IMG/VR virus record: IMGVR_UViG_3300031576_000112
Location: 1-43,618 of that record
DNA: 43,618 nt
Source of the DNA: a virus
Reading direction: 5' to 3' (one strand)
Position 1 is the first letter of the stretch. Each line of letters begins with the position of its first letter. Made by a program: the position numbers and the translations under genes. The notes beneath the pieces are model-generated. The model was not told the DNA's origin, did no database searches, and saw nothing but the letters and a program-made list of their open reading frames with translations. This document shows positions 8,766 to 37,531 of the stretch, in pieces.

Positions 8766-8926
8766 TGGCGAGGTCGCGGAAGCAAAAGAACGTATTCGCT
8801 TGCAATCGCCGCGGTTTTGGGCAGCTCTGCGGTCACGATCCATCTAAAGATGGTCCGCATACGGTTGATCCTGGTCGCTTTGTAAAAGGCCACGGAAAGC
8901 CTCGCGGCGTAAGGATGGGGGGATAA
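8765..8926 (+). CDS. Small basic Cys/His protein (53 aa)
   Basis: GTG overlapping the previous TAG, with GAGGA upstream. Basic, with CNRRGFGQLCGH and further histidines. Its TAA overlaps the connector start (TAATG). Natural composition and tight coupling support it; function unknown. Confidence 0.55.
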   Translation: MARSRKQKNVFACNRRGFGQLCGHDPSKDGPHTVDPGRFVKGHGKPRGVRMGG

Positions 8927-10743
8927 TGGCTGGCTTCGGGGTAGCTCAGTATTTCGGCGGCCGCGGCGATGGCACGAACACTCTCAGCGCAGGAGACTTG
9001 ACGGAACGACGCAAGAGATACGAGCTGCTCTACAGCCAGCTCGACAGCGAGCGCGGGACTTTCCGGGCGCATTGGCAGGACCTAAACGACTACATCCTCC
9101 CGCGGAGAGCTCGGTTCTTTCTTTCCGATGCCAACAAAGGCGACAGGCGCAATCAGAAGATCATCGACTCCACAGCTTCGCTCGCGGCCAGGACTCTGCG
9201 ATCTGGGATGATGGCCGGGATCACGTCTCCTGCTCGGCCCTGGTTCCGGCTCACGACTCCAGACCCATTGTTTGAGGAAGTCCCTGCCATCCAAGCATGG
9301 CTGCATATTGTCGGTCAGGCCATGATAAATGTTTTCCTAAAATCTAATCTCTACAATACCTTGCCGATTCTTTATGGCGACATGGGAACCTTTGCATCCT
9401 CGGCTATGCTTGTTGAGGAGGATTTCGGTTACGTCATTCGGACCCAGGCGTTCCCGATTGGTTCCTACTTTCTGGCGAATGACGACAAAGGTCGTGTTCG
9501 AATCTTTTTCCGTGAGTTTAGAATGACGGTTCGCCAGCTCGTAGACAAGTTTGGCGAGAAGGACGAGAAGGGAGTCCTGACGAACAAGGAAATCTTTTCC
9601 ACGCACGTTATGAGCCAGTACGAGCTCGGCCAGCTCGAAACCTGGGTGGATGTTTGTCACGTCATTCATCCAAACGAGGACCACGATCCAAAAAAGCTGG
9701 AGGCCAAGTATAAGCTCTTTAGGTCGGTTTACTACGAAAAAGGCTATTCAGCTAAACACAGCGGAAAGTATCTTCAGGTCCATGACGATGGCCGATACTT
9801 GCGCGATTCAGGCTTTGATTATTTCCCGGTCTTGGCCGCCAGATGGGAAGTGACTGGTGAGGATGTCTACGGGACCGATTGCCCAGGCATGACTTCGCTA
9901 GGAGACATCAAGCAGCTTCAGGTCATGGAGAAACGTATTGCCCAAGGTATTGAGAAAAAAGTCAACCCCCCGATGGTCGGCCCGACTTCTCTCAAAGCGG
10001 CCAGAGCTTCGATACTCCCCGGCGACATCACTTACCAGGACGTGCGCGAGGGGATGCAGGGCTTCAGGACGGCCCATGAAGTCAATTTAGACCTGAGCCA
10101 TGCTGAGGCCAAGGAAGATCAGATCAGGGGCAGGATTCGCAGGGCTTTCTATGAGGACCTGTTCCTCATGCTATCCATGACGGATCGGCGCGAGATCACG
10201 GCGCGAGAGATCGACGAACGCCATGAAGAAAAATTGCTCGCCCTCGGCCCGGTGCTTGAGCAGTTGAATCAAGATGTTCTCGACCCCTTGATTGATATTA
10301 CGTTTGCCATCATGCTCAATCAGGGCCTCATTCCTGAGCCTCCCGAGGAGTTGCAGGGCATGGAGCTGAAGGTGGAATACTTGTCCATCATGGCCCAGGC
10401 CCAAAAGCTCATCGGCTTAGGCGGGATCGAGCGGTTTGCTGCCTTTGCCGGACAGATTGCTCAGGCGAGTCCTCAGTCCTTGGACAAGATTGACACGGAT
10501 CAGATGATCGATGTTTACGGCAACATGACCAGTATCCCTCCTGGGATCGTGCGCTCAGATGAGGACGTTGAGGCGATCAGGAGCCAGCGAGCTCAAGCTG
10601 CCCAGGCTAAGGCGATGGCCGAGGCCGCGCCAGCCATGGCCGGGGCCGCAAAGGATTTAAGCCAAGCCAACCTAGATGGGAATAACGCTCTAAACGCTCT
10701 TATAGGACAAGCTCAGGCAGGGCAAATCGCGCCAGGAGCGTAA
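8926..10743 (+). CDS. Head-tail connector (portal) protein
   Basis: 605 residues, of the podovirus head-to-tail connecting family (Pfam Head-tail_con). The family signature is visible early: LTERRKRYELLYSQLDSERG, WQDLNDYILPRRARF, IIDSTASLAARTLRSGMMAG and SPARPWFRL. The ring it forms is the packaging channel and the joint to the tail. Length is slightly above T7 gp8. C-terminus is alanine-rich and helical. Confidence 0.92.
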   Translation: MAGFGVAQYFGGRGDGTNTLSAGDLTERRKRYELLYSQLDSERGTFRAHWQDLNDYILPRRARFFLSDANKGDRRNQKIIDSTASLAARTLRSGMMAGITSPARPWFRLTTPDPLFEEVPAIQAWLHIVGQAMINVFLKSNLYNTLPILYGDMGTFASSAMLVEEDFGYVIRTQAFPIGSYFLANDDKGRVRIFFREFRMTVRQLVDKFGEKDEKGVLTNKEIFSTHVMSQYELGQLETWVDVCHVIHPNEDHDPKKLEAKYKLFRSVYYEKGYSAKHSGKYLQVHDDGRYLRDSGFDYFPVLAARWEVTGEDVYGTDCPGMTSLGDIKQLQVMEKRIAQGIEKKVNPPMVGPTSLKAARASILPGDITYQDVREGMQGFRTAHEVNLDLSHAEAKEDQIRGRIRRAFYEDLFLMLSMTDRREITAREIDERHEEKLLALGPVLEQLNQDVLDPLIDITFAIMLNQGLIPEPPEELQGMELKVEYLSIMAQAQKLIGLGGIERFAAFAGQIAQASPQSLDKIDTDQMIDVYGNMTSIPPGIVRSDEDVEAIRSQRAQAAQAKAMAEAAPAMAGAAKDLSQANLDGNNALNALIGQAQAGQIAPGA

Positions 10744-10746
10744 CCC

Positions 10747-11106
10747 GTGGCGGTCATAACTCCGACCATAACAGAGATCAAAACTCGGGGCGACCGAGGC
10801 CATCTTATCACATGGGGAACTCTGGGAGCTGGCGATGAGGGTTCGCCGATTTCCATGATAGGATCAACGATCCGGACGGCCCAGATCATCGGCACGTTCG
10901 GGGCCGGGTCGCGGGTAGCCATCGAAGGCTCAAATGATGGAGTGACTTACGCCACTTTAACGGATTCTCATGGAAACGCCCTGAGTTTTGCTGGCTCAGG
11001 AATTTCTACTGTTTCGGAATTGACGCTCTATATTAGACCCAGAGTAACGGCTGGCTCTCCATCTGCCTCGGTTAAATTGCTCATGCGAAAGACTGAGGAG
11101 CGGTGA
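10747..11106 (+). CDS. Beta-rich virion protein (IEGSNDG type)
   Basis: GTG 10747 after AGGAGCGTAACCC. 119 residues with a pattern seen in phage surface proteins: LITWGTLGAGDEG, IIGTFGAGSRVAIEGSNDG, then TLYIRPRVTAG. It is probably a small jelly-roll or Ig-like virion decoration. Unlike the four genes after it, it has no signal peptide. Confidence 0.65.
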   Translation: MAVITPTITEIKTRGDRGHLITWGTLGAGDEGSPISMIGSTIRTAQIIGTFGAGSRVAIEGSNDGVTYATLTDSHGNALSFAGSGISTVSELTLYIRPRVTAGSPSASVKLLMRKTEER

Positions 11107-11576
11107 AGATATTGCTGATAATGCTTCTCGCTTCTACCGCGGCCGCGGAACCACCGTGGCTGGAGGAGCAAACTTATGGAACGACCGCTGTCGAAGTCAA
11201 AAGGGGAACTATAACCATAAATTCAATGCCTCCTGTCTCGATAGCTGTTGGCTCGACCGTAACGGCCATAACAGAGGGATCGTTCCTATTGGTTTCCACA
11301 GACATCTCTGTCGTTAGTGGCAGTGGCTCTAGCGTATTCTCCGCGACCGGAACGATCAAAAATTGTTCATTTGTGCCGCCTTCCTCCTCATCGATTTATG
11401 ATTTCGAGATAGTGACGAACGACTCTGATGAGTTCCCTGTTTTCGGGAATGTTCGTAGATTGGTTGGAAAAACGGGCCTGATAGGTGATAGAATCCTTTT
11501 GGGGTCGCATAAGGCTAGGTTTGAAAACGCCTCGCCGGATGGGACTTACAAAGCTAGATGTGTGGTAAAAAAATAG
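11103..11576 (+). CDS. Secreted beta-rich protein with Sec signal peptide (1)
   Basis: GTG overlapping the previous TGA. 157 residues beginning KILLIMLLASTAAAEPP: a positive residue, a hydrophobic core and an AAA-E cleavage site, i.e. a Sec signal peptide. The mature part is strand-rich (SVTAITEGSF, STDISVVSGS) with two cysteines that could form a disulphide. First of four adjacent proteins with signal peptides. Function unknown. Confidence 0.65.
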   Translation: MKILLIMLLASTAAAEPPWLEEQTYGTTAVEVKRGTITINSMPPVSIAVGSTVTAITEGSFLLVSTDISVVSGSGSSVFSATGTIKNCSFVPPSSSSIYDFEIVTNDSDEFPVFGNVRRLVGKTGLIGDRILLGSHKARFENASPDGTYKARCVVKK

Positions 11577-11586
11577 GAGGATGAAA

Positions 11587-12426
11587 ATGAAAAAACTACT
11601 GTTAGCCTTGGCGCTGACCTTGGTCGGCTCGGAAGCCTTCGCGGTTTCCAGCTACCTAGGGACCGCGGTTCAAGACGTAAGCGGCTCCACCGTGAATATC
11701 GGTGGATCGCTTCCGGCCGGAACCAATAACATCGGCGATGTCGATGTGTTGACCCTGCCCTCGATCCCCACAGGGACCAATAACATTGGCACGGTGAGCG
11801 GATCAACCGTGACCATTGGGAGCCCTCTCCCCGCGGGAACGAACAACATCGGAGACGTGGACGTACTCACGTTGCCGAGCATCCCGACCGGGACGAACAA
11901 CATCGGAACCGTTAGCGGATCGACTGTTACGATTGGAAGTCCTTTGCCGACCGGAACAAACACCATTGGCGAAGTGAAGGTCACGGATGGGACTGACGAC
12001 CTAGCGATCAACGCCGACGGCTCTATCAATGCCGTCGTGACGAGCGCGAACGTGAGCGCATCCACGGTCGGAGTCCGCGGCGCAAGCGGTGGGACGATCA
12101 CGGATACTTCCGTTGGCTCAGGACTTGCCCTAGACGTTCTGGATGCCAGCCGAGCAAACCTGGATGGTAAAGCCTTGGTCTATAAGTCCTCAGACAACTT
12201 TGTTGTCGGCGGGGCCTTAACCTTGACCGGAATAGCGAACCAGGTTGACCTCCAGGCATTTACGAATGATTGCACCTTCAACCTGGCTGGCGGCGAGTCA
12301 ATCAACGTGGCGAAGAATACGTCGGAGTCGTTCAACTTCGACTATACATCCATAAACCTGACCGTGAACCTGACGGCCAAAAGCGCAGGTGCGACCTGCA
12401 AGGCCAGAATCACAGGGGCTAATTAG
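11587..12426 (+). CDS. Secreted repeat protein with Sec signal peptide (2)
   Basis: ATG 11587 lies six bases after AGGAGG; the ATG at 11581 touches the AGGAGG and is less likely. 279 residues: signal peptide MKKLLLALALTLVGSEAFA, then two complete 39-residue repeats (units starting LPAGTNNIGDVDV) and a degenerate third, then a strand-rich C-terminal half. GTNNIG repeats of this kind are known from phage structural proteins and should form a regular beta structure. A cleavable signal on such a protein is unexpected. Confidence 0.7.
   Translation: MKKLLLALALTLVGSEAFAVSSYLGTAVQDVSGSTVNIGGSLPAGTNNIGDVDVLTLPSIPTGTNNIGTVSGSTVTIGSPLPAGTNNIGDVDVLTLPSIPTGTNNIGTVSGSTVTIGSPLPTGTNTIGEVKVTDGTDDLAINADGSINAVVTSANVSASTVGVRGASGGTITDTSVGSGLALDVLDASRANLDGKALVYKSSDNFVVGGALTLTGIANQVDLQAFTNDCTFNLAGGESINVAKNTSESFNFDYTSINLTVNLTAKSAGATCKARITGAN
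11710..11943 (+). repeat. Two 117-bp tandem coding repeats
   Basis: Copies 11710-11826 and 11827-11943 encode the same 39 residues exactly, but differ at many third codon positions (for example ACCAATAACATT against ACGAACAACATC). The protein sequence has therefore been kept by selection, or the codons were deliberately diversified, after duplication. Confidence 0.85.
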
Positions 12427-13250
12427 TGCGTAGCCTCATCCTCCTATTGCTCCTAGCCCCCGCGCCCGCATGGGCGGGGGCCGCGAGCCTTGCTGACAAC
12501 TCCGTCGTCGGCTTATCCAGTAGCGGCGCGACGGTCAGCGTGACGGGAGGAAAATTGGACGTGAACGCAACGGTCAACGCCAATTCGCTCCAAGATATCA
12601 ATATCATCAGTACGTTTTCGGCGATGAATCCTGGCTATGTCAACGCGCAGGGGTTGTACTCGACAGGAACAGTTGCGAGCCCTAAACCTGTAATTGTCGG
12701 CGGGCTCACTTCGTCGGGCACAGTCAAAAATATACTGCTGGATTCAAACGGAGCCCTGCAAGTTTCCGTCGTCCCCGCTGTTGACACAGGCAATAAATAC
12801 TACATGGTGGACACGAGCATTAATCGGGCCGCGACAGGCGACGCGAATCTCGGGACCGATAACCCGATGCTCTTGATCGTCAATCCTTCAACATCTACCA
12901 AGACCCTCGGAATCGTTACCAGGATTTACGGGATTGCCGTGACAAACGTAATGGCGATGTTCCGGCTCTACGACTCCCCTGTTGTAACAAGCTCAGGGAC
13001 AGCCCTTTCCGTGAGGCCCGGTCTCTCAGGAAATTCAACGCCGTCCGTCGCACAAGCCTACAAACTCCCGACGGTAAGCTCGAAAGGCGATCTCCTAGAT
13101 TCCTACATCATCAGTCAAAATTCAAGCGGAGCGCCGATCCAAGAATCCCAAGTCCTGCAACTGCCACCAGGAAAGAAATGGCTCGTCACGGCGGCTCCAA
13201 GCTCAAACAACCGCGAGGTAGATATTTCCGTCAAATGGATAGAACAATGA
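12426..13250 (+). CDS. Secreted beta-rich protein with Sec signal peptide (3)
   Basis: GTG overlapping the previous TAG. 274 residues: signal peptide RSLILLLLLAPAPAWA-G, then a strand-rich N-domain (SGATVSVTGGKLDV) and a C-terminal domain containing NPSTSTK, YDSPVVTSSGTAL and LPPGKKWLVT. The C-terminal domain is clearly paralogous to the next gene. Domains of this type occur in phage virion surface proteins. Function unknown. Confidence 0.68.
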   Translation: MRSLILLLLLAPAPAWAGAASLADNSVVGLSSSGATVSVTGGKLDVNATVNANSLQDINIISTFSAMNPGYVNAQGLYSTGTVASPKPVIVGGLTSSGTVKNILLDSNGALQVSVVPAVDTGNKYYMVDTSINRAATGDANLGTDNPMLLIVNPSTSTKTLGIVTRIYGIAVTNVMAMFRLYDSPVVTSSGTALSVRPGLSGNSTPSVAQAYKLPTVSSKGDLLDSYIISQNSSGAPIQESQVLQLPPGKKWLVTAAPSSNNREVDISVKWIEQ

Positions 13251-13765
13251 CATTTTTAGTAATCCTCCTGCTATTTATGTGTCAGCCAGCCCACGCGCTA
13301 GATATGCGCGACGAGGCCGAATTAGGGACAAGATTCGCAGTTTCCTCTGGAAGCACGACGATCAATTCTACAGCCGAAGTTGATGCGTTGCTTCTGCTAA
13401 ATTTGTCCACCAGTACAATCAAGGTGTACATAGATAAAATCTATTTTTCCTCTCTGTCCAGCAACTCCAAAGTGATCGTTAATATCTACGGTCAGCCGAC
13501 CGTGACGGCTAACGGGACCAAACTAACGCCGCGCAATTCATACTTCGGACACGCAAGCGTCGCAAAAGCGGAGGTCTACAAGTCTCCAACAATTTCAAGC
13601 ATGGGGGCTTTGGTGGCCGTGTACTCCGTAAAAGATACGGTCATGTTGATTGACATCTTTGAAGGCAGAGTTATTATCCCGCCGGGATACCGGATGCTTT
13701 TGACCGTGCAGATGGACGCGGCTGGAAATTCCTTTAGCTCTACTTTTTCATGGGTGGAACGATGA
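13247..13765 (+). CDS. Secreted beta-rich protein with Sec signal peptide (4)
   Basis: ATG overlaps the preceding TGA (ATGA). 172 residues: signal peptide MTFLVILLLFMCQPAHA-L, then one domain that aligns with the C-terminal half of the gene before it (LNLSTST, YGQPTVTANGTKL, ASVAKAEVYKSPTISSMG, IPPGYRMLLT, FSWVE). A tandem duplication with loss of the N-domain explains this. Function unknown. Confidence 0.68.
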   Translation: MTFLVILLLFMCQPAHALDMRDEAELGTRFAVSSGSTTINSTAEVDALLLLNLSTSTIKVYIDKIYFSSLSSNSKVIVNIYGQPTVTANGTKLTPRNSYFGHASVAKAEVYKSPTISSMGALVAVYSVKDTVMLIDIFEGRVIIPPGYRMLLTVQMDAAGNSFSSTFSWVER

Positions 13766-13962
13766 GAACCATCACGGCGACCATTATCATTTCTACCGTC
13801 ATGGCCTGGATTGGATGGGACATCTACGCCGCCTTTAACCGTGAGGCTGGCGATACGATCAGCGAAGTCGTGCTGGCGGCGGCGCAGGGAAAACCCATTG
13901 TGCCGTTTGCGGTCGGCATGATTATTGGGCATTTATTCTGGCCTCAGAGCAAAGATGATTAA
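13762..13962 (+). CDS. Two-helix membrane protein, holin candidate
   Basis: ATG overlaps the preceding TGA. 66 residues with two hydrophobic segments (TITATIIISTVMAWIGWDIYAAF and PFAVGMIIGHLFW; each is visible within the first 25 and last 25 residues), a polar hinge with EAGDT and a charged tail QSKDD. Size and topology fit a class II holin, but similar short proteins with unknown function are frequent in phages. Confidence 0.55.
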   Translation: MRTITATIIISTVMAWIGWDIYAAFNREAGDTISEVVLAAAQGKPIVPFAVGMIIGHLFWPQSKDD

Positions 13963-14089
13963 TTTTTTTCAACGGCTGTTCGGTGGGAAAGGTTTTTTCT
14001 TCACCATCCGAATACCGATAAGCTGGACAGGAGGCTCAAATGTTCAAAATGATCGTAAATCTGGGAGCAAAGTTGACGGGTCTGAGTAA
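13955..14089 (+). CDS. Possible small protein (44 aa)
   Basis: A frame starting inside the end of the previous gene (MINFFQRLFGGKG...). The first half looks natural; the second half overlaps the next gene by 50 bases. No strong ribosome binding site. Weak call. Confidence 0.3.
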   Translation: MINFFQRLFGGKGFFFTIRIPISWTGGSNVQNDRKSGSKVDGSE

Positions 14090-14324
14090 GCTCTGGGAGA
14101 AAGCAAGCGGTTATAAAGCCTACGTCGGCGGCGCTTCGGCTCTACTAATGGGCGCGGCGCAGCTCCTTGAGCAGCTCTCTAAGCTCGGAAGTCCGGCCGA
14201 CTTCTTCGAGTTCGCCAAGAACATCCACACGAACCCGGCGATGGCCTTGATCTCTATGGGCCTGATTGCCGTCGGCTTGCGCCACAGCGATCAGAAGATC
14301 GAGGACAAGATTGCATCGAAATAG
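14040..14324 (+). CDS. Small membrane-associated protein
   Basis: 94 residues, ATG after ACAGGAGGCTCAA. Two moderately hydrophobic helices (YKAYVGGASALLMGAAQLL and AMALISMGLIAVGL) flank a polar stretch with KNIHTN. The end IEDKIASK is charged. Similar proteins occur with lysis or head genes of podoviruses; role uncertain. Confidence 0.6.
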   Translation: MFKMIVNLGAKLTGLSKLWEKASGYKAYVGGASALLMGAAQLLEQLSKLGSPADFFEFAKNIHTNPAMALISMGLIAVGLRHSDQKIEDKIASK

Positions 14325-14388
14325 GTCCTATGAAGTATTGACAAAAAAACAAGAATGATGCAGTATTGAATTGGTAGAATCCAAACAC

Positions 14389-14700
14389 ATGAACGTAGCA
14401 GACCCGGAAAGGATCAAGGATCAGAAGCATAAGGAGCGGCGCGTCCGCGAGCAGGAGCTATTCGATGTTCGCGCAGTTCTCTGTACGCCTGAAGGCCGGA
14501 GGTTTTTCTGGAGGCTTCTGAGTCTTTTTAAGGTGTTTGGTTCGATCTGGGAGAGCAGCGCCCGTATTCATTATAATTCGGGCCAACAGGATTGCGGCCA
14601 CTTCTTGCTGGCCGAAGCATCTGAAGCAGACCCGGAGGCTTACCTTCTCATGCAGAAGGAAGCTATGAAGCGCGAAAGAGAGGAATCTATCAATGCCTGA
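14389..14700 (+). CDS. Bbp19-like phage protein
   Basis: 103 residues from ATG 14389 (TTG 14371 is possible). It carries the Bbp19-type core: VRAVLCTPEGRRFFWRLLS, then FKVFGSIWE, HYNSGQQDCGHFLLAEAS and PEAYLLMQKEA. This family, named after Bordetella phage BPP-1, lies just upstream of scaffold and coat genes. Function unknown. No clear ribosome binding site. Confidence 0.72.
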   Translation: MNVADPERIKDQKHKERRVREQELFDVRAVLCTPEGRRFFWRLLSLFKVFGSIWESSARIHYNSGQQDCGHFLLAEASEADPEAYLLMQKEAMKREREESINA

Positions 14701-15322
14701 ACAAACTATCGATCCCGCAAAGGCTAACCCCGGCGCGGCAGCGAGTGTTGACGAAAAGACTTTCGGCTCCAAAGAACCCGAGCCGAAGGCAGAACCAAAA
14801 GCGAGTGCAGAAGGCGCGGCGGCGAAAGGTGCTGAAGGTGGGCAGCCAGTCGTAAAGCCGATTGAGCTGAAACTACCGGAGGGCTCATTACTGGAAGCGG
14901 GGGCCGTGGAAAGGGTCAAGACGCTTGCAAAAGAGCGCGGACTTTCCCAAGAACAAGCCCAAGAGCTTCTGGATAGAGAGCATCAAGTTCTTGCCTCCTA
15001 CGCTGAGGGCCAGAAGGCTACGCTGACGAAAACGATGAACGCTTGGGTTGAGGAGTTGAAGGGTGACAAGGAAGTTGGCGGCGAAAAGTTCAAAGAGAGC
15101 TCGGAGCTTGCCAAGCGTGTTATCCGGAGATTCGGGACCGAAGCGTTTCTAAAAGACCTGAACGAAAGTGGATTCGGGAACCATCCTGAGCTCGTGCGAA
15201 CTTTCGTCAGGATCGGGAAGGCCATGTCCGCGGATTCTTGGGTGACTCCTGGCGCGATGCCAGCGCCTAAGAAATCTTTGGCAGAGGCCCTCTACGGAAG
15301 CGAAACCTCAAAGGAGGAATAA
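14693..15322 (+). CDS. Capsid scaffolding protein
   Basis: 209 residues: a disordered Ala/Pro/Glu/Lys N-terminal third, then long charged helices (VERVKTLAKERGLSQEQAQE, EGQKATLTKTMNAWVEEL) and a small C-terminal region with FGNHPELVRTFVRIGKAM. This composition, plus location directly before the coat gene, matches scaffolding proteins of BPP-1-like phages. It would guide coat assembly and then leave. Confidence 0.78.
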   Translation: MPEQTIDPAKANPGAAASVDEKTFGSKEPEPKAEPKASAEGAAAKGAEGGQPVVKPIELKLPEGSLLEAGAVERVKTLAKERGLSQEQAQELLDREHQVLASYAEGQKATLTKTMNAWVEELKGDKEVGGEKFKESSELAKRVIRRFGTEAFLKDLNESGFGNHPELVRTFVRIGKAMSADSWVTPGAMPAPKKSLAEALYGSETSKEE

Positions 15323-15325
15323 ACA

Positions 15326-16336
15326 ATGGCAACGCTAGGCGCATCTGTACTGACCCTTGCCGATCACGCCAAAAGGCTTGATCCGGGTGGGAAGATTGAC
15401 ATGATCGTTGAGCTTCTCGGTCAGACGAACGAGATTCTGTCTGACATGATGTTCATGGAAGGGAACCTTCCGACCGGACACCGCATCACCGTCCGAACCG
15501 GGCTTCCCACCGTGGCATGGAGGCTCTTAAACCAGGGTGTTGCTCCGTCCAAGAGCACGACTGCTCAGATCGATGAGCAAGTCGGAATCCTGGAAGCCTG
15601 GTCCGAGGTTGACAAGGACTTGGCCGAGCTGAACGGGAACCAGGGCGCGTTCCGTCTCTCCGAAGCTTCTGGCTTTGTTGAAGCCATGAACGAGGAGATG
15701 GCGGGAACCCTGTTCTACGGAAACAGCGGCACAGCGCCGGAGGAGTTCACCGGATTGTCGGTTCGGTATTCCGACATCGGTTCCGGCTCTCCCGCGAACG
15801 CCCAGAACATCCTTGACGGGGGCGGGACTGGATCGGACAACAGTTCGATCTATCTCGTGGTTTGGGGCGCTCAGACCGTCTTCGGGGTCTTCCCGAAGGG
15901 TTCCAAGGCAGGGCTCGTGCATGAGGACCTGGGACTTCAGACCGTCGAAGTGACGGCCGGAATCGCAGGAAACCGCATGAGAGCCTACCAGGATCGCTGG
16001 CAATGGAAGCTCGGACTTGCGCTGAAGGACTGGCGCTATGTGGTCCGCATCGCCAACATCGACATCTCGAACTTGGTCGCCAAGACTTCCGCGGCTGACC
16101 TGATCGAGTTTATGATTAAGGCGATTCACCGCATCCCGAGCCTTCGGGCTGGCAGACCCGCGTTCTATATGAACCGGAGCTGCTTCCAGATGCTCGACAT
16201 CCAGCGCCGAGATGATGTGATCTCTGGCGGCGGCCTCGTCTACGCCAACGTGGACGGAGTTGCCATTCCGACGTTCCGAGGTATTCCTGTCCGGATTTGC
16301 GATCAGCTAACCGAGACGGAAGCCCAGGTCGCCTAA
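15326..16336 (+). CDS. Major capsid protein
   Basis: 336 residues, ATG after AAAGGAGGAATAAAC, the strongest ribosome binding site in the head block. It begins ASVLTLADHAKRLDPGGKI and contains LPTGHRITVRTGLP, VDKDLAELNG and LRAGRPAFYMNRSCFQMLD, features of the HK97-fold coats of BPP-1-like podoviruses. Position after scaffold and before cement supports the call. Confidence 0.88.
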   Translation: MATLGASVLTLADHAKRLDPGGKIDMIVELLGQTNEILSDMMFMEGNLPTGHRITVRTGLPTVAWRLLNQGVAPSKSTTAQIDEQVGILEAWSEVDKDLAELNGNQGAFRLSEASGFVEAMNEEMAGTLFYGNSGTAPEEFTGLSVRYSDIGSGSPANAQNILDGGGTGSDNSSIYLVVWGAQTVFGVFPKGSKAGLVHEDLGLQTVEVTAGIAGNRMRAYQDRWQWKLGLALKDWRYVVRIANIDISNLVAKTSAADLIEFMIKAIHRIPSLRAGRPAFYMNRSCFQMLDIQRRDDVISGGGLVYANVDGVAIPTFRGIPVRICDQLTETEAQVA

Positions 16337-22391: not shown

Positions 22392-23866
22392 TGCCAACCG
22401 TGCCAAGAATCACAGAGAGAACCGTAGCAGATCGGCCATTGCCGAGCGTTCAGATACAGCCAGCAGCTCCTCTTGAGGCTTTTGGAGGAGGTCAGGCCGC
22501 GGGGCAAGCCGTAGAAACGGCCAGAGGACTTCTGCATACTGTCGGAGAAATAGCCATTAAAGAAAGGCAGCGAGCCGATGATGTCGCTGTTCAGGATGCT
22601 TATAGCCGATTTGTTCCACAGACGAACAGCCTTCTTTATGATGAGAAAGCAGGAGCTCTTTCGAGGCGCGGGAAGGATGCGATGGGAGTCCTGGATAGCC
22701 ATGCTCCGATGTACGATAAGGCTGCCCAGGAGATTGAGGAAGGTCTTGCAAATCAAACTCAGCGCGATATGTTCAAGCAGATCGCGTCAAAGCGTAAAGG
22801 CGAATTTTTAGAGGCGATCCAAAGGCATACTTTCAAAGAGCGCCTGTCTTTGGAGGAAGGGACTTTCAACGGCCTGGTTCAAAATCTACAGGAAGATGCC
22901 GCCGTCAATTCTAATTTGAAAGGCAAGATCGCCGACAACATGAGGCAGATGGAAGGAGCTGCCAAAAACTTTGCAGCCAATCGCGGAATCAGCAAGGAAG
23001 AAACTGACGCGATGCTTGCGAAAATCAGGAGCGGAACCCATGCGAGCGTTCTGCGCCGGATGCTCGTTGAGGGCCAGGTCGATGAGGCAGAGAAGTATGA
23101 AAAAGTTGTTTCAAAAGAAATCCTCGACGACGATTTAAGGGTTTTGGATTTGGTCAAATCAAAAGCAGATCATGCTAGGGCCGAGGCGGCAGATGAGGGA
23201 AGCCGAGAACTCTACATGAGGGCCGTCAATGGGCAACTTCCCTTAGCGGAGGTTGACAACCTATTCGCTTTGGGAAGAATAGATCGATCCTTTTTTAAAG
23301 AACTTCGCTCCAGGGTTTTAAGCCCTAATGATGATCCAGCCATTGCTCCGGATCAAAAGACAGAGAAATTCCTTGCCCTGCTTGATGAATTTAAGAATCT
23401 TCGCGGATCGGAACTGGACAAAAATGGCAAATTGATTAAGCCAGCGACAAAAAATGATCTAAAAACCTTAACGGCTTTTAGAAGTAAAGTCGCTCAGTCT
23501 TCTGGGTTTTTGACAGAAGAGCAGGAGAGGGCTTTCTATAATTATACTCAGAGGAATTTCAATGAAGCCAGAAGCCCAAAGGTCGGGATTTTTGATGGAC
23601 TTTTGGCTGCCTTAAAGTCTATGCCACTGTCTCCCGAGAAGCTTAACGCGGCCGTGACGGGGGCTGTTCTTAGAATCTTCGACAGCGGAACATCGGTGAG
23701 CCAAGCCAGCGCAGCTTCCGCTGAGATTGCTCAGTCGGCGGCGATAGCAACGAACCCAAATCGAAGCCTGTATCAAATCGGGCAAATTCTCAATATGTCG
23801 AATGGATCGGTCAAGGTTGTTGGATTCGATACGGACGGAGAGCCTCTCGTCGAGAGGCTCAAATGA
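22391..23866 (+). CDS. Internal virion protein, gp15-like
   Basis: 491 residues, mostly helical, charged, beginning PTVPRITERTVADRPLPSVQ and continuing with a long coiled region. Location between gp14-like and giant gp16-like genes, and length, suggest the second ejection protein. No enzymatic motif found. Its stop overlaps the next start (ATGA). Confidence 0.68.
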   Translation: MPTVPRITERTVADRPLPSVQIQPAAPLEAFGGGQAAGQAVETARGLLHTVGEIAIKERQRADDVAVQDAYSRFVPQTNSLLYDEKAGALSRRGKDAMGVLDSHAPMYDKAAQEIEEGLANQTQRDMFKQIASKRKGEFLEAIQRHTFKERLSLEEGTFNGLVQNLQEDAAVNSNLKGKIADNMRQMEGAAKNFAANRGISKEETDAMLAKIRSGTHASVLRRMLVEGQVDEAEKYEKVVSKEILDDDLRVLDLVKSKADHARAEAADEGSRELYMRAVNGQLPLAEVDNLFALGRIDRSFFKELRSRVLSPNDDPAIAPDQKTEKFLALLDEFKNLRGSELDKNGKLIKPATKNDLKTLTAFRSKVAQSSGFLTEEQERAFYNYTQRNFNEARSPKVGIFDGLLAALKSMPLSPEKLNAAVTGAVLRIFDSGTSVSQASAASAEIAQSAAIATNPNRSLYQIGQILNMSNGSVKVVGFDTDGEPLVERLK

Positions 23867-26800
23867 GCGAGCGTCTATCAGATGTTCTAGCGTCTCAGGG
23901 AGAGGCTCCGGAGGTTCCCCCGAGCGCAATGCGATTGGGAGATTTTACCAGTCTTCCGAGAGAACAGAGCGTTCCATTCTCAGACGATATTTTAGAGATT
24001 TCGGAAGAGCAAAAATCAGCCTGGAAAGCTCGTGGTCCAATAGGATTCATGGAGGCTTTCAGAAGGGAAAATAAAGCCGAAATTCTACCATTTAACTTGG
24101 GCTCATTGATTTCTAAAGAGCCCGTTGGACTTTTTAAATCCTTTTCTCTTATGCGAGCAGTCAATCGATTACATGATCCGACGACTTCTCAAGATCAACG
24201 CGCTAAAGATGAATCCTTGGTCGGCGATTATCTCGTGCAGCTAGAGGAGGAGCGTATTCGCACTTTCTCTACACGAGGCAAGATCGCTAAAGGCATCGTG
24301 AATTTGCCGCCTTACATGATCGAGTTCTTGGCTACTGGCGGCGCGGCTTCTTTAGGTAAGGCTGCTATCAGAAAAAGTATCTCAGGAGTCGCTCGCAAAA
24401 TTGTTGAAAGTGGGACCTTAAAAGCTACGACGCGAGTGGCCGGCGGCGTTGCCGGAGCGGTCGCCAGGACTGCGGCTATGCCTCATAGACTGGCTCAAGG
24501 CTTCGCAGAGAGACAATTAGCTGCCGGACTTGAACTGACTGATGAAGGAATCAAACTCGCTGATGAGGTCAGTGAACAGCCCCATGTTTCAGCGTTAAAA
24601 GCTTTTGGCGACGTAATGATCGAGAACTTCAGTGAAGTGACTGGTCCGGCCATAGGAAGGACCGCGGGCTATTTGATTCCACAACAGCTTAAACAGGGAC
24701 TTGAGAAGCTTTTTGTAAAACTACATCCTTCCGAATCAGTCAGGAAATTATGGACTAAAGCTGGATATCATGGGTTCTTGGAAGAACTCGGCGAAGAGCG
24801 GGTTGGCGATTTTTTAAGAGCCGTTACGGGAGTAGAGGATTTTGGAGCCAAAGACCCTGACAGCATTTTTGATCGAGTTGTATCCTCAATCCCGAATGCT
24901 GAGGAGTTGCTTGTTGAGGCCGCCGTTTTAAGTATTCCTGGTGCAGCTCGTATGACAACTTCTCAGATCATTAATTTGATACAGACGCGCAAAAAGGAAG
25001 ATGGAGCTATTGAGCCTGAGCTTCAGAATATTCCGGATGAAAGGATTTACGAGATTCTCCAGGGTCCTAAAAAAGAAGAAGTCCGGGCTCCAGCCGAACC
25101 TCTCGATATTCTGGGCCAAGCAGAGGAGAGCCTTGAGGCCGCAGCCGAAGTCCTGCCTATCGAGCTAAAGGACCAAATTGAGGCCGTCGGGGTCAATCCT
25201 TCCTTAGTTGAGGATGCTATTAGGACCTTTAGGGAGGCTGAGGCTACAGGAGAGGGGCCGGGAACCATCCAAGCCGCCCTACAGAATCTAGGAATCGAGC
25301 TTCCTCCGGAGGTATCGGAATCGCTGCAAAAGGTCCTCCTGGAGCCAGCGGAGGCCGTAAAAGCCCAAATTCCAGCCCAGGTAGTCCCCTGGGAGGCTAT
25401 CCCAAGCAAAAGCTTGGGAGCCTTGATAGTCGATGCGCCTTTTGAAGAAAGAACTGCTTTCAGCCAAAAAGCCATTCAGTTGATCCGCGGATCGGCCGGA
25501 CAGGACCTTTTAGCGGAGGAGCTCGGGATCGCTCAGGCCAAGACCGATCCAAGTACAGGAGCTTATGCTGGAGGGATTAATCCCAACGCGGTCACAATCC
25601 TGTCAGCAGACACGCCGATTGAGAAGGTCAGGGCTTACGCGAGAGCAATCCAATATATCTACAAGCAAGATGCGGTCCCGTTTTTTAAGGCTTCAGAGAA
25701 GGGTCCGACCCCTGGAGTGGTCTTCCGTTTTGGAGAATCCCTAACCCCGGAAATGGAGGAGAAGTTCTTCTCCGTGTTACGAGGGGCCTTGACAGAATCG
25801 GCCGGATACACTAAACTAAATGACAAGGAAATTACGGTCCTTGATTTCGAGGGTTTACCTAAATTCCTTGAAAGAATCAGAACTCTGGACGAAGAAAATG
25901 GCGAATCAATCGGAATCGAATCGTGGCGAGACTTCTCAGCCGAATCAGAATACGGCCCAACCCATGATTGGAAATCAGACCCAAAAGGCGAGTCGCTACG
26001 CGGGGCCGCTTCCGAAGGATCACCCTCTTTACAAGCAGGGCTGGATAGTCGGCGCAAAGCGTTTGAAAGACTCCTCTCCGAATCCAGCGCAACCATCAAC
26101 GCAGAAACCGCTCTCCGAAGCGGACTGATCCTCCAGTATACTCCCTATCCTGGCTTAACCCCCGAGCAAAGAGAAGTTGAAACCCGTCTTGCTGATAGTC
26201 TTTCAAGACCCAATGCTATTGAAAAATATGAGTTCATGCCAGCGACTCTCGACGGGAAAATGCTCAATGCTGATCTTGTCAGATTTGTGTCAAAAGAATT
26301 TGCCGCAAACAAAGAAAGCGCAACGCTTCATACTCTCAGCACTCAAAAACCATCTACAGCCTGGATCAAGAAGCATTATCTTGAAAAGCTCGCACAACCG
26401 GGATCAGGACGAGTTCTTTTCTTCGCTGGCGGCGGCGGTAGCGGTAAAACTACTACGGCGACAGGTCCTCTTGCAAGCATCGCAGATGAATCGGACATTA
26501 TTTTCGATGGAGTTATGTCGGATGCTATTAAATCAGCAGAACAAATCGATGCTGCTTTGGCGAGCGGCCGTCCAGTCACAATCGCCTATGTCCATCGTCC
26601 TCTAAAAAATGCTGCCGAGGCAGTCCGGGAAAGGTATTTACTTACCGGGCGCTATGTTCCGTCGGAAGTCCTGACTGAAGATCACGTCAGATCGCAGCAG
26701 ACTATTCTCCAGCTTGCAGATCAATATAAAGACAATCCGGCAGTAGACATTCGCATCTACGACACTTCTTCCGGAACGCCAAAAACATCGAGCCTTGACA

Positions 26801-29766
26801 CGATCAGGAATCTCAGTTATACTAAAGGCGGTGAGTCAGTTGAGGAAACTGTAGCTCGCCTCCTGCCGAAAGTAAGAGAGGTACTCCAAGATGTCGAAGA
26901 AGAAGCAGAAAGAATCATCGCACGAGGAACAGAGGAAAAAGAGTTCGGACTTCGGGAAGCGGCTGGACGAGGTGGTGTTAGCCTCGTTGCAGAAGGCATC
27001 CCAGGAAGGCCCGAAGGCGTTGCCCTAAAATCATCGCCGCTCAAGCGGACTATCCGTGAATTGACGGGGCAGTACCACAAAGAGCTTCCTACCATAAAGG
27101 CGTACCAGGCCCTCAAAGAATCCCTCAGAGTCCAAGCCAAAGCAGCGCGGGAAGCAGCTCGCATGACCCGCGAAGAAATTAAGGCTGCTCAAACGCAGCT
27201 CGTCGAGTTATTGGAAAAATCCGGCCTTGCGCCGGAAGACAAAGCAAAGTTCATTCGCACGATCAAGAACATTCAATCTCAGGAACAGCTTTCCGGCTCG
27301 CTCCCGGAGATCGAGGCTCGGGTTGACGCGCTCATCGAAGCCTCAGCCAAACGCAAAACAATTTCCGCAATCCATGAGGAGCTCCGCGCCGTCACTCCGA
27401 AACGCCAAGCGGGTCGCCTTGTCGGGCGTTTTACTCCAGAGATACAGGCAGCCTTAGACCGGATGCGCCGAGCAGAGCGTCTGACCCAGGCGGCGGCCGC
27501 GGCAAAGCTCGAAGAAAATCTTTCCAAGAACAATTCCGGGAATACTTTCATCCCTGATCCGTTGACGGCTCTCGAAAATAAGATGCTCAACCTTGTCGCC
27601 AGCCGAGAGGCTCTTTCCAGCAAGGAGCTCGGAGAGATGCTTTTTCTGATCCGGACCCTGAAGCTGGCTGGCAAAGAAGCTCGGCTTGTGAAAGAATTGC
27701 GGGATCAAGCAGACCTGACTCAGAAGCAGCAGATCGCTTTATCCATAATCGACAGCCGTCCAAAAGACAAAATCCCGACCACGGCCGATGAGAGTGCAGA
27801 TGATACCAAGTGGGGATGGTACAACCGTGCAACGTCCTGGCTCCTGGGCTGGAATAATATCCTAAATCGTCTCTCCAGAAATGACAAATTCACGACGACG
27901 AATAGAAGCCTTTTGAATCAACACGCCAGCGTTTCAGAGGAAGAAATAGTTGAGAAGCGCGGCATCCGTTTGAATCTGAAAAAGCTCCGCAAGATGTGGG
28001 TCCAGCATTTCGGAGAGATGAACGATTGGGAGCTGACTAAGCGATGGGCCGAAGACTCGAAGCAGCGGTCGCTAGGACAGTTCACAAATGTCCGCGGCGA
28101 GAAGATTGAGCTCGTCATTTCACGCGCAGAAGCCCGTAAGCGGTGGATGGAGTTCCAGGACCCAACCCTCAATGAGACTATTTTCGGAGAACAGGGAATG
28201 GCCTGGAGCCAGGATATGCGTAAGGCCGTAGAGAATTTGCTGTCTCCACAGGACATCGCCTTTGCTCGGGATCAGATGAGTTTTTATCAGAACTATTACA
28301 ATGATTTTAATAAGGTCTTCAGCAGCATCAACGGGGTAAACCTTCCGCAAAACAAAGCCTACAGCCCTATCCGGAGAGTGGTTTTAGAGCGGGAGGTTCT
28401 TGAAAACGAGCTCCTGGGTGAAATGACTCATCGCAGGGCGATCACTCCTTCGGCCGGGAAATTCCGCGTCAAGAACATCCGGGCGCTACAGCAGCTCAAT
28501 GACATCGATATAATCCAGAGGCATATCCAACAGGTCGAGCATTACAAGGCATGGGCCGAGAAGATAAGAGTCCTAAATGGAATCTTTAACGATCCGAAGG
28601 TCAGAGAGGCTATCCAAACCAATTTCGGGAAAGGATTGCTCGCGGCCGTGGATCGCAACATCGAGGACTTTACTCGTGGAGGGATCGACAGGTCCAGCGA
28701 CAGCGCCGTTCTGAACGTCATTAAAAATAACTACACCGTCTCAGTTTTAGCAGCCAAAGGAGCCATCGCCATCAAGCAGTTTATGGCGTTCCCGGCGTTC
28801 GCTGACGCAATTCCTACGAAGGATTTTATAACTGGACTTCTTGACTTCGGCATTGACTCCAGGAAGAAAATGATGATCCTCGCGTCTTCCGAGGTCATGC
28901 GCTCCCGCGGTCTTGCGATTACGCCGGAGATGAAAGAGGCTATCGAGTCAAGCGAGTGGGCTTCCTTCCAGATGAATCCGAATCTGAGGAATATGCTGCT
29001 TACTATGACGCGCTTCGGCGACCGAGCCTCCATCTTTTTAGGAGGCTGGCCTGTTTATCGGTATCATCGAGAGGTCCTCGGCAAGCCTCACTCCGAGGCG
29101 ATCAAGGCGTTTGAGATCGCGCTTTCAGACAGCCAACAATCCGCTGACTTGTCCCAGGCTTCGATGTTCCAGCGCGGGAACTCTTGGCAGCGGCTTTTCT
29201 CTGTTTTCCTCTCAGCTCCAAATCAATACTTCCGGAAGGAATTAATGGCTACTGAGGATATGTTGGCCGGGAGATTGAGCAAACAGCAATGGGCCAAGAC
29301 CATAGCGATTTACCACTTCATTCTTCCGATGATGTTCCAATGGGCCGCGGATGGCCTTGAGTACAGGGTGAAGGATCAGATCAGGGCCGGATTGCTTGGA
29401 TCGTTTAACGGAGTTTTTATTTTGGGCGAGGTCCTAAACGCCATGCTCGGTCAAGTCCTCGGCCTCAAGGTGTGGCAATCCAAGACGATCATCGACAGCA
29501 TCTCCAGAGAGGCAATGGATTTCATCAAGAAGCTGAACCCAGAAGACCTGGATGCGGAATCCTTCTTCGATGCCATTAAGCAGGGGCTCACGCTCTCCGG
29601 CCTCGTGAAAGGATTGCCTATGGATCAGGCAATCAATATCACGGAAGGCATGAAGCAGATGGGCGAGGCCGACACCACAGAAGAATTTTGGAAAGGCTTT
29701 CGCCGAGTGGCCGGGTGGTCTAAATATGTGGTCGATGAAGGTGGAAAAAATAAGGGTCCGTTTTGA
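23863..29766 (+). CDS. Giant ejection protein with zeta-toxin-like kinase domain
   Basis: 1967 residues. In place of T7 gp16. The N-terminal 450 residues are helical with amphipathic membrane-active stretches. Residues about 830-1000 form a P-loop kinase like zeta toxin (UDP-GlcNAc kinase): Walker A G856-GGGSGKT with K862, acidic strand IIFDGVMSD (D882), and VHRPLKN...RYLLTGRYVP. Long helical segments follow, then a C-terminal region (WYNRATSWLLGWNNILNRLS, QNKAYSPIRR, LLTMTRFGDRASIF) resembling ejected polyvalent phage proteins. It would cross the cell envelope with the DNA and could act on host metabolites. I found no obvious lytic transglycosylase motif. Confidence 0.82.
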   Translation: MSERLSDVLASQGEAPEVPPSAMRLGDFTSLPREQSVPFSDDILEISEEQKSAWKARGPIGFMEAFRRENKAEILPFNLGSLISKEPVGLFKSFSLMRAVNRLHDPTTSQDQRAKDESLVGDYLVQLEEERIRTFSTRGKIAKGIVNLPPYMIEFLATGGAASLGKAAIRKSISGVARKIVESGTLKATTRVAGGVAGAVARTAAMPHRLAQGFAERQLAAGLELTDEGIKLADEVSEQPHVSALKAFGDVMIENFSEVTGPAIGRTAGYLIPQQLKQGLEKLFVKLHPSESVRKLWTKAGYHGFLEELGEERVGDFLRAVTGVEDFGAKDPDSIFDRVVSSIPNAEELLVEAAVLSIPGAARMTTSQIINLIQTRKKEDGAIEPELQNIPDERIYEILQGPKKEEVRAPAEPLDILGQAEESLEAAAEVLPIELKDQIEAVGVNPSLVEDAIRTFREAEATGEGPGTIQAALQNLGIELPPEVSESLQKVLLEPAEAVKAQIPAQVVPWEAIPSKSLGALIVDAPFEERTAFSQKAIQLIRGSAGQDLLAEELGIAQAKTDPSTGAYAGGINPNAVTILSADTPIEKVRAYARAIQYIYKQDAVPFFKASEKGPTPGVVFRFGESLTPEMEEKFFSVLRGALTESAGYTKLNDKEITVLDFEGLPKFLERIRTLDEENGESIGIESWRDFSAESEYGPTHDWKSDPKGESLRGAASEGSPSLQAGLDSRRKAFERLLSESSATINAETALRSGLILQYTPYPGLTPEQREVETRLADSLSRPNAIEKYEFMPATLDGKMLNADLVRFVSKEFAANKESATLHTLSTQKPSTAWIKKHYLEKLAQPGSGRVLFFAGGGGSGKTTTATGPLASIADESDIIFDGVMSDAIKSAEQIDAALASGRPVTIAYVHRPLKNAAEAVRERYLLTGRYVPSEVLTEDHVRSQQTILQLADQYKDNPAVDIRIYDTSSGTPKTSSLDTIRNLSYTKGGESVEETVARLLPKVREVLQDVEEEAERIIARGTEEKEFGLREAAGRGGVSLVAEGIPGRPEGVALKSSPLKRTIRELTGQYHKELPTIKAYQALKESLRVQAKAAREAARMTREEIKAAQTQLVELLEKSGLAPEDKAKFIRTIKNIQSQEQLSGSLPEIEARVDALIEASAKRKTISAIHEELRAVTPKRQAGRLVGRFTPEIQAALDRMRRAERLTQAAAAAKLEENLSKNNSGNTFIPDPLTALENKMLNLVASREALSSKELGEMLFLIRTLKLAGKEARLVKELRDQADLTQKQQIALSIIDSRPKDKIPTTADESADDTKWGWYNRATSWLLGWNNILNRLSRNDKFTTTNRSLLNQHASVSEEEIVEKRGIRLNLKKLRKMWVQHFGEMNDWELTKRWAEDSKQRSLGQFTNVRGEKIELVISRAEARKRWMEFQDPTLNETIFGEQGMAWSQDMRKAVENLLSPQDIAFARDQMSFYQNYYNDFNKVFSSINGVNLPQNKAYSPIRRVVLEREVLENELLGEMTHRRAITPSAGKFRVKNIRALQQLNDIDIIQRHIQQVEHYKAWAEKIRVLNGIFNDPKVREAIQTNFGKGLLAAVDRNIEDFTRGGIDRSSDSAVLNVIKNNYTVSVLAAKGAIAIKQFMAFPAFADAIPTKDFITGLLDFGIDSRKKMMILASSEVMRSRGLAITPEMKEAIESSEWASFQMNPNLRNMLLTMTRFGDRASIFLGGWPVYRYHREVLGKPHSEAIKAFEIALSDSQQSADLSQASMFQRGNSWQRLFSVFLSAPNQYFRKELMATEDMLAGRLSKQQWAKTIAIYHFILPMMFQWAADGLEYRVKDQIRAGLLGSFNGVFILGEVLNAMLGQVLGLKVWQSKTIIDSISREAMDFIKKLNPEDLDAESFFDAIKQGLTLSGLVKGLPMDQAINITEGMKQMGEADTTEEFWKGFRRVAGWSKYVVDEGGKNKGPF
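25898..26128 (+). CDS. Possible overprinted gene inside the giant protein
   Basis: In another frame of the giant gene, ATG 25898 opens 76 residues with natural composition: a Gln/Asn/Ser-rich start, then KASRYAGPLPKDHPLYKQGW and IVGAKRLKD. In the host frame this same stretch is a low-complexity linker just before the zeta-like domain. There is only a weak ribosome binding site (GAAGAAA). It may be a genuine overlapping gene or chance. Confidence 0.3.
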   Translation: MANQSESNRGETSQPNQNTAQPMIGNQTQKASRYAGPLPKDHPLYKQGWIVGAKRLKDSSPNPAQPSTQKPLSEAD

Positions 29767-29797: not shown

Positions 29798-30499
29798 ATG
29801 GCGCTTTCATCGGCAACAAGTCGAAATGATTATACGGGGAACGGAGCGGCGAGCGTTTACGCCTACAGCTTTAGGATTACGGATCAGTCTCACCTTGTCG
29901 TCACAGTCAAGGATACTTCAGACGTAGAGACCTCTCTTTCTTTAACCACTGACTACACTGTTTCCGGCGTGAACTCTGCGAGCGGCGGGAACGTCACTTT
30001 AGTGAACTCAAGTCAATCGTGGCTCACTGGAGGAAATTTAAAAAGCAACTACAAGCTGACGATCCGGCGCTCGGTTCCTTTGACTCAACTTACCGACATA
30101 AGAAACCAAGGCTCTTTTTTGCCCGAGACACATGAGGATCAGTTTGACAGGCATACGATGGCAGATCAGCAGCAGCAAGACGAGATCAACCGATCCGTCA
30201 AGCTGCCTGAGACCATTCCGAGCTCAACCTTCGATCCGGAGCTTCCAGCTACAATAACTCAAGTGGCTGATCGAGTTCTTCAGGTGAACTCAACGAAGAA
30301 TGGATGGGCGCTAGGAGCATCTGCCACGGTTGACGTAGCCAGAATGTTTACATCGGATACCTATGCCAGTCTCAAGACAGCGGCGCTTGCTGCTCCAACT
30401 TTGCTCAGATGGGGATGGGCAACTGATATTAAGCAGCTAGTTTTTTATACGGCTGATACCACAGTCGGTGATGCTGGCTGGATTTCGGTGGGGGGATAA
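29798..30499 (+). CDS. T7-type tail fibre, N-terminal attachment protein
   Basis: 233 residues, ATG after GGGAGGTAAAC. The first 150 residues match the T7 gp17 N-terminal domain that docks fibres on the tail: SRNDYTGNGAASVYAYSFRI, TDYTVSGVNSASGGNVTLV, and LPETHEDQFDRHTMADQQQQ. The C-terminal end is short, so this is probably only the adaptor, with receptor binding supplied by another protein, perhaps the next. Confidence 0.85.
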   Translation: MALSSATSRNDYTGNGAASVYAYSFRITDQSHLVVTVKDTSDVETSLSLTTDYTVSGVNSASGGNVTLVNSSQSWLTGGNLKSNYKLTIRRSVPLTQLTDIRNQGSFLPETHEDQFDRHTMADQQQQDEINRSVKLPETIPSSTFDPELPATITQVADRVLQVNSTKNGWALGASATVDVARMFTSDTYASLKTAALAAPTLLRWGWATDIKQLVFYTADTTVGDAGWISVGG

Positions 30500-30500: not shown

Positions 30501-31733
30501 ATGAATCTTCTTTTCAAAACCTTAGTGCTCTTGCTCCTCGCGGCCCCCGCGCTGGCTGGACCTTATGAGGGCTCGTCCATATCGACGGCCACAGGAAAGG
30601 CCACGCGGAATCTAAGCGGCTCCTTTGGCATCGCCGCCAGCTCAGGGACATCTTCCGCTTATACGATTCACATGGACGGTCAATCCGGTTCAATCCAAGC
30701 CTCAAGCGGAACCTTTGTCTACAGCGTTAAATCCGCGACTGCGGCCTTCGGCCCCGCGGGGACGACTCTCCCATCTGGCGCGGCCGTCATTTCAAGCGGA
30801 ACCGTTGTTATCCAATCGACTTCCTCGGCGGCGACTCATCAGGCATTTAAAATTCAAAACCAGTCTGGCACGGAGTTATTCCGAGTCCAGCAAGATGGCA
30901 AAGTGGCTGTTTCATCTAGCACTCCGACCGATGAGTTTAGCGTCCAAGGCAATATAAATGCAAACGGCTATAAAGCCGGAACCACGGCGGGAACTAGCGT
31001 CACCTGTACCGCGGGCCAATATCTCAATTCCTCTCAGGTCAAAAACGGCATTACAGTCGCCGGGACGTGTGCCACGGCCGGAACTGGTGACGCTATTTTA
31101 AGCGCCACGCAGACATTCACCGGGGACAACACCTTTTCGACCGTCAGAATAAAAGGGTCACAGGGCATCGGGATCGGACCGGGCCTCATGGTCCTGGTTT
31201 CCAGCCAATCATTTTCTGCCGTACATATTGCGACAGTGACGATACCCTCGACAGGGACTTATAAAAGCTACTACATAACAGCCGATGTTCAGAATGTCAA
31301 CGCCGCGGCACGGTCTTTCCTGGTTTATGTCGGGACCGAAACGTCAACGGGCCACGCCTTCGGCATGGCTTCGGCCGCCAGCAACGCGTCAAACAATGCA
31401 AGCGGATGCGTTTTTTCAGCCGGTGCCGTTGCTCTATCATACACGGCGGCCAATGCCACGAATGTGGGCATTAACGCTGACGGACACTTCAGGATGGAAC
31501 TGAACTATATCAGCACGAACATCGTCATGGGAAGCTGGCGTTATTCACATCATACCGGAGCAGTTGGAAGCATCTTTGTTGAGGACCACGGAGGGTTTTA
31601 TTACCGCGGCGGGGCGGTCCCCGCCTTCGGGGATATGCATTTTTTCATGGGAACGACAACGTCCTGCACGGTATCCACGCCAAGCGCGGCATCGTTGACA
31701 GGGACATTCTATGTCTATGCAATGCCCTTTTAA
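30501..31733 (+). CDS. Tail-fibre-like protein with Sec signal peptide
   Basis: 410 residues from ATG 30501 after GGGGGGATAAC. It begins MNLLFKTLVLLLLAAPALA-G, a typical signal peptide. The body is Ser/Thr/Gly-rich and strand-rich (ISSGTVVIQSTSS, FRVQQDGKVAVSS) like trimeric fibres, ending in a globular domain with TASNAS... and HGGFYYRGGAV (C1q/TNF-like in appearance). Signal peptides are abnormal for virion fibres; see findings. Confidence 0.68.
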   Translation: MNLLFKTLVLLLLAAPALAGPYEGSSISTATGKATRNLSGSFGIAASSGTSSAYTIHMDGQSGSIQASSGTFVYSVKSATAAFGPAGTTLPSGAAVISSGTVVIQSTSSAATHQAFKIQNQSGTELFRVQQDGKVAVSSSTPTDEFSVQGNINANGYKAGTTAGTSVTCTAGQYLNSSQVKNGITVAGTCATAGTGDAILSATQTFTGDNTFSTVRIKGSQGIGIGPGLMVLVSSQSFSAVHIATVTIPSTGTYKSYYITADVQNVNAAARSFLVYVGTETSTGHAFGMASAASNASNNASGCVFSAGAVALSYTAANATNVGINADGHFRMELNYISTNIVMGSWRYSHHTGAVGSIFVEDHGGFYYRGGAVPAFGDMHFFMGTTTSCTVSTPSAASLTGTFYVYAMPF

Positions 31734-36386: not shown

Positions 36387-36391
36387 ACCCC

Positions 36392-36420
36392 TTGACAAAA
36401 TCAGTATGTTCCGCTATACT
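36392..36420 (+). promoter_or_regulatory. Sigma70 promoter P2
   Basis: TTGACA (36392-36397), 17-base spacer, TATACT (36415-36420), GT. Sequence before the -10 (ATGTTCCGC) matches the pattern of the other two promoters. Followed by AAAGGAGG and ATG at 36449. Confidence 0.88.
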
Positions 36421-36448
36421 GTATTGCAGGGAGAAAGGAGGTAGGAAA

Positions 36449-37530: not shown

Positions 37531-37531
37531 C

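Follow-up and report, generated by a model that had tools for sequence, protein, structure and literature searches.

Why would a tailed phage carry genes for secreted proteins in the midst of those that build its head? Tailed phages, in the textbook view, assemble fully in the cytoplasm; we know of none that exports a fibre before assembly, and a literature search, mostly of papers readable without subscription, brought up no description of a Sec signal on the fibre of a tailed phage. The question arises from a virus record of 43,618 bases, the whole of which is analysed here (hereafter the window), for which a first-pass annotation described four tandem genes for secreted proteins at 11103-13765. 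Four consecutive genes bearing a signal peptide (SP), here called A to D, are indeed present there, with the starts of B and D shifted relative to that annotation (Table 1).

Table 1. Features of the head-gene block and the tail-fibre locus of the window. A slash separates the SP from the mature part.
Feature	Coordinates	Strand	Evidence and remarks
Portal / head-tail connector	8926..10743	+	PF12236 E 1.9e-156, phrog_332
Z, 119 aa, conserved, without SP	10747..11106	+	Homologues in 14/80 portal loci
A, SP protein, 157 aa	11103..11576	+	SP 11103-11147 (MKILLIMLLASTAAA/EPPW); 2 Cys in mature part
B, SP protein with PAGTNNIGDVDVLTLPSIPTGTNNIG repeats	11587..12426	+	SP 11587-11643 (MKKLLLALALTLVGSEAFA/VSS); 2 mature Cys
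C, SP protein, 274 aa	12426..13250	+	SP 12426-12476 (MRSLILLLLLAPAPAWA/GAAS); paralogue of D through its C-terminal domain
D, SP protein, 172 aa	13247..13765	+	SP 13247-13297 (MTFLVILLLFMCQPAHA/LDMR)
E, small, hydrophobic stretches	13762..13962	+	PF24202 sub-threshold; conserved in L029
F, small, hydrophobic stretches	14040..14324	+	No family match (profile searches)
Small conserved protein preceding protease	14371..14700	+	phrog_528
Capsid protease, epsilon15-type	14693..15322	+	phrog_458 E 2e-45
Major capsid protein (MCP), GP7 family	15326..16336	+	PF20911 E 1.1e-129
Tail-fibre adapter, 233 aa, without SP, T7 gp17-type N-terminal domain	29798..30499	+	phrog_1640 E 9.7e-45, residues 1-137
Fifth SP protein, 410 aa, fibre-like	30501..31733	+	SP 30501-30557 (MNLLFKTLVLLLLAAPALA/GPYE); 4 mature Cys

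The window begins and ends with an identical direct repeat of 127 bp (1-127 and 43492-43618), and the record is therefore probably a complete genome. Its portal (PF12236), capsid protease (phrog_458) and GP7-family MCP (PF20911) mark it as an epsilon15-like podovirus, with head genes in the order portal, Z, A, B, C, D, E, F, small conserved gene, protease and MCP. The upstream neighbour had been labelled the connector, correctly as judged from its PF12236 match (E 2e-156), while the supposed scaffold gene downstream turns out to be the epsilon15-type capsid protease (phrog_458), with the GP7 MCP next in line. From Z to E each stop codon overlaps or abuts the next start, beginning with a GTGA overlap between the stop of Z and the start of A, and A-D are translationally coupled. 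Homologues of Z (33-61% identity) occur in the head-gene region, after either the portal or the MCP; family profile and PDB sequence searches gave no match for Z, which we regard as a candidate head adapter. At the other end of the run, E is a putative, unproven holin-like protein. Elsewhere in the window, an internal (ejection-type) protein of 1967 aa encoded at 23863-29766 contains a Zeta_toxin-like kinase domain (residues 877-969; PF06414, E 8e-9), so that the protein may be delivered into the host. Searches of the complete window genome for integrase or resolvase genes (PF00589, PF00239) gave no match, and a reading of A-D as lysogenic-conversion genes thus finds no support.

Signal peptides were scored with a home-made scorer that tries several starts per open reading frame and that, in a calibration against proteins from a 100-kb stretch of E. 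coli K-12, gave values of at least 7.5 to 0/51 cytosolic and 9/13 known exported proteins. On this scale A-D reach 9.69-10.14, and whole-protein shuffles attain the score of the parent protein in 0-2 of 2000 cases. Each N-terminus has a short n-region, an unbroken hydrophobic core and an A-X-A-type end, in agreement with what is expected of a Sec signal (charged n-region, hydrophobic core, small residues at -3/-1), save that the n-region of D contains no positive residue. B most likely starts at 11587 (MKKLLLALAL..., with AGGAGG upstream) rather than at 11581, and D at 13247 (MTFLVILLLF..., with an ATGA overlap with the stop of C) rather than at 13178. None of the four has a lipobox, there being no Cys at +1 in A-C and D reading LFMC, which is not a lipobox; a reading of A-D as phage lipoproteins of the Llp/Bor type, for which a lipobox with Cys at +1 would be expected, is not supported on this basis. 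In the mature parts no second transmembrane stretch was seen (mean hydropathy over 19 residues peaks at 0.97-1.51), and S, T, G and N make up 33-47% of the residues, a composition that would fit the beta-rich bodies first proposed for them. With 31% identity (E 2e-14), C and D are paralogues of each other, and both weakly match phrog_5335, a family of unknown function (E 2e-4 and 4e-4, respectively). Profile searches with A-D found no T7-type attachment domain (PF03906/phrog_1640), no phage cement protein (PF09956) and no lysis family, and PDB sequence searches returned nothing useful (best E 0.11). A has no relatives in IMG/VR, and C as a single query found none, its relatives emerging only once an alignment was used. 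Strong SPs, their conservation across relatives and paired cysteines make Sec export of A-D a well-supported prediction from sequence.

The interval between portal and protease is variable in content among 80 related portal loci, being either empty or occupied, in some cases by SP proteins and in others by fibre/beta-type proteins lacking an SP. It is thus an accessory slot, in which four SP genes in a row are exceptional. An unbiased set comprising the 64 loci that have both anchors includes seven with an SP gene in this position, and by our crude scorer the enrichment over the rest of the same loci is not significant (odds ratio 2.6, p = 0.06). SP genes are absent from the portal-MCP gap of all 12 annotated or deposited phages examined, including epsilon15 and BPP-1. 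The portal scan of genomes yielded 13 relatives, mostly distant; most of the sequences compared are metagenomic, and the genome counts are small. One related locus (L029) contains a C/D orthologue directly after Z, with the SP kept at about 35% identity (37% for D). A second fibre-like SP family, unrelated to A-D, also uses the slot in uncultivated phages, 27 of its 38 non-redundant members lying directly behind the portal gene. In this family, gathered by patterns from the C-terminal domain only, an SP is present in every member with a complete 5' end (43/43, or 38/38 non-redundant). The number of mature cysteines is even in 37/38, and 19 aligned mature members have four invariant cysteines and few other invariant residues, as would be expected for disulfides formed after export. 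A genome scan with this family found no relatives. SP genes in the operons of uncultivated relatives are recurrent and not a matter of chance. A gammaproteobacterial symbiont prophage (L134:10617-12188) has an amidase-like-looking gene and two SP genes in its portal slot, which may thus also carry lysis-type genes.

The first-pass annotation placed A-D within the head operon, and this location stands, whereas head-specificity does not, as SP-bearing fibre-like proteins are encoded at the tail-fibre locus as well. There, the tail-fibre gene of the window consists of an attachment domain and a short tail only, and directly 3' of this adapter lies the gene of the fifth SP protein, which has a strong SP by the same home-made scorer and no relatives in IMG/VR. 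An SP-bearing, mostly fibre-like gene directly follows the T7-type adapter in 12/15 genomes (the window, G015, G020, G004, G005, G001, G010, G008, G013, G014, G006 and G012, the exceptions being G003, G009 and G007), while G022, G023, G025 and G027 have SP genes neither in the head slot nor directly after the adapter. Head and tail slots tend to agree in whether they carry SP genes (11/2 versus 3/6, Fisher p = 0.026), in a table assembled by hand after the fact from few and phylogenetically linked genomes. The metagenome-assembled phage MW202898 (GenBank) has an adapter followed by an SP gene, as in the window. The annotated start of this gene (MW202898.1, ct8d5349, 35733-38486, UOF83102.1) hides the SP, and the likely start lies 33 bases downstream (MFNKILIAIVFIITCLNAFS/DGN). 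On a contig binned with Pelotomaculum (L189:1476-6600), the tail-fibre adapter is followed by a run of six SP-like genes, one of them with a LamG-type lectin domain, and the portal slot is devoid of SP genes.

A further arrangement is that of L165, where a complete T7-type fibre (phrog_1640 E 1e-42, PF03906) is preceded by an SP of 23 aa with an ideal ribosome site, the one case in which the attachment domain itself carries an SP. Residue 24 of this protein aligns with residue 2 of its homologues, placing the end of the SP exactly at the start of the virion-attachment domain, and the sole alternative start near the domain border is a GTG without a ribosome site.

Domains found behind SPs also occur without them. 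The N-terminal domain of the SP proteins of L016 and L024 recurs in slot proteins lacking an SP (L006, L037, L038, L072 and L036; E 1e-11 to 1e-13, with hmmsearch values of 7e-12 and 3e-13 and hhalign 97.5%), and the L006 protein ends in a Peptidase_S74 intramolecular fibre chaperone. D has a homologue without SP in L126 (33% identity, the homology covering C/D), and the repeat of B recurs in a protein without SP that phage MW202601 encodes in its head/tail gene cluster (68% over 73 aa). Similarly, the SP protein of L185 shows homology to gp36 and gp37 from the cultured pelagiphage HTVC034P, both without SP, and SP proteins of a head slot (L024) and a tail slot (L183) have a C-terminal domain in common (E 1e-9). 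These observations indicate that SPs have been gained or lost several times in front of fibre/virion-type domains. L126 also contains an ORF with a long WDSVRASVGASV-type repeat (L126:5-1201), where a second frame is open too.

We propose that distal parts of head or tail appendages are exported, folded outside the cytoplasm, often with disulfides, and bound to virion adapters after lysis, a reading whose chances of being right or wrong we hold to be evenly balanced. A-D would be distal appendage proteins of the virion, of the head-fibre or decoration type, co-translated with the head genes and presumably expressed late in infection. In the real host they would leave the cytoplasm via the Sec pathway, lose their SPs by cleavage, and fold in the periplasm or outside the cell, with disulfides forming where cysteines exist. 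At lysis, the mature proteins would encounter completed particles and attach to an adapter that these already carry, which for the head set may be Z; the fifth SP protein would join the tail-fibre adapter likewise. The best argument for export followed by joining to the virion, a step that would then be possible only after lysis, is the attachment domain retained on the L165 fibre. For A-D themselves, we infer virion attachment. Four roles had been suggested at the outset, and attachment to virions after lysis gains most from these results because the same domains occur without SP in fibre/virion-type genes and an SP precedes a complete T7-type fibre; superinfection block, receptor binding and coating of the infected cell gain less.

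The main rival to post-lysis attachment is an envelope- or receptor-directed role, in which exported A-D would occupy or mask receptors, exclude other phages or keep progeny off debris. The strong SPs of A-D are in line with such a role, as are the lectin-like LamG domains that some of the relatives' SP proteins carry; binding domains of the fibre type would be suited to the task, and variable cargo at one slot fits an arms race. Such a role would parallel that of the T5 lipoprotein Llp towards FhuA, and exported receptor blockers are known in phages (T5 Llp, PMC9586334). However, A-D have neither a lipobox nor a membrane anchor, and an attachment domain would be useless on the envelope to the exported L165 fibre. 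Moreover, the genes lie within the structural block, where expression is presumably late and thus late for exclusion, and we consider this role unlikely, if with an appreciable chance. Another suggestion is that A-D are free secreted factors, binding for instance glycans or matrix, or captured host surface proteins that benefit the cell, with no part in the virion. Among the SP proteins of relatives, some have a LamG match or a sub-threshold ricin-type similarity, which favours it, as does unrelated cargo in tandem. Against this, an integrase is present in only 2/20 related contigs and neither integrase nor resolvase in the complete window genome, making a lasting benefit to a lysogen unlikely, and the domains are shared with fibre/virion-type genes; we regard this explanation as improbable.

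A different objection is that the SP-like N-termini do not lead to export at all: signal peptidase would leave them in place as membrane anchors or for docking, or the phage's own protease would take them off at a later stage, with assembly at the inner membrane face. Capsid proteins must assemble in the cytoplasm, and MCPs cannot be exported, yet SP-like in-frame N-terminal extensions with good ribosome sites precede 3/110 GP7-type MCPs (L131:11701-12807, from a Herminiimonas prophage, L132:15723 and L059:6928), such that an SP-like N-terminus in these phages need not mean export. In these three cases the extension possibly serves in membrane docking of proheads or is a propeptide that is removed, and a head protease gene is at hand in the window. 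On the other hand, small-residue -3/-1 motifs end nearly all the SPs, that of L165 stops exactly at a domain border, and invariant, paired cysteines fit an oxidising compartment, leaving docking a rather small chance of being the general explanation. That A-D belong to a lysis cassette, for example as spanin-like proteins, is very improbable: the small hydrophobic genes E and F directly follow, and the L134 prophage combines its amidase-like-looking gene with SP genes in the same slot, but A-D contain no lipobox, no second transmembrane stretch and no match to a lysis family. An artefact of wrong start codons or chance hydrophobic N-termini, to which a home-made scorer trying several starts per ORF could give rise, is barely credible given SPs in 4/4 genes, their rarity among shuffles, the ribosome sites or stop-start overlaps at the starts, and conservation in relatives.

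Extending the proposal of post-lysis attachment to the group, we tentatively picture a large group of uncultivated podoviruses that divide virion building between the cytoplasm, for heads and tail adapters, and the periplasm, where the distal fibres of head and tail would arrive via Sec and fold oxidatively, the two sets being joined only after lysis and the fibres being exchangeable among particles of one lysate; the probability of this fuller picture we put a little short of even. Should receptor-binding parts be exported and join the particle only after lysis, the inheritance of host range would change, and fibres could be shareable between co-infecting phages. Disulfide-rich fibres would be explained, and annotators would gain a route to receptor-binding proteins that are now called hypothetical. 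Post-lysis joining is, in addition, a clear and testable prediction obtained from sequence alone.

Several known systems resemble parts of this arrangement. The head block of epsilon15 and BPP-1 has the same order of portal, small gene, protease and GP7 MCP as the window, whereas in these phages and ten other relatives the portal-MCP gap is without an SP gene. Phage cement or head decoration proteins (PF09956) are approached by the slot SP protein of L016, whose C-terminal match (E 1e-4, 22.9 bits) falls just under the cut-off of 24; A-D do not match this family, and cement proteins are not known to be exported. T5 Llp is phage-encoded and sent to the envelope, as is proposed for A-D, and Lom and Bor are further phage-encoded proteins with this destination. 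A-D, however, are not lipoproteins by the lipobox test, and they have domains in common with fibre/virion-type proteins. The addition of tailspikes or fibres to particles in vitro is classical for P22 and T4. Filamentous phages have virion coat proteins with a Sec signal that is present prior to assembly. These coats, however, are assembled in the membrane during extrusion, while the window represents a tailed dsDNA phage for which release by lysis is expected. Filamentous phage has also been used for secretome display (PMC4823517). The T7 gp17-type fibre (PF03906, phrog_1640) shares its N-terminal virion-attachment domain with both the adapter of the window and the L165 fibre. To our knowledge, T7 gp17-type tail fibres have no signal peptide, whereas in the phages described here the distal part comes from an SP-bearing gene of its own or, in L165, the whole fibre carries the SP.
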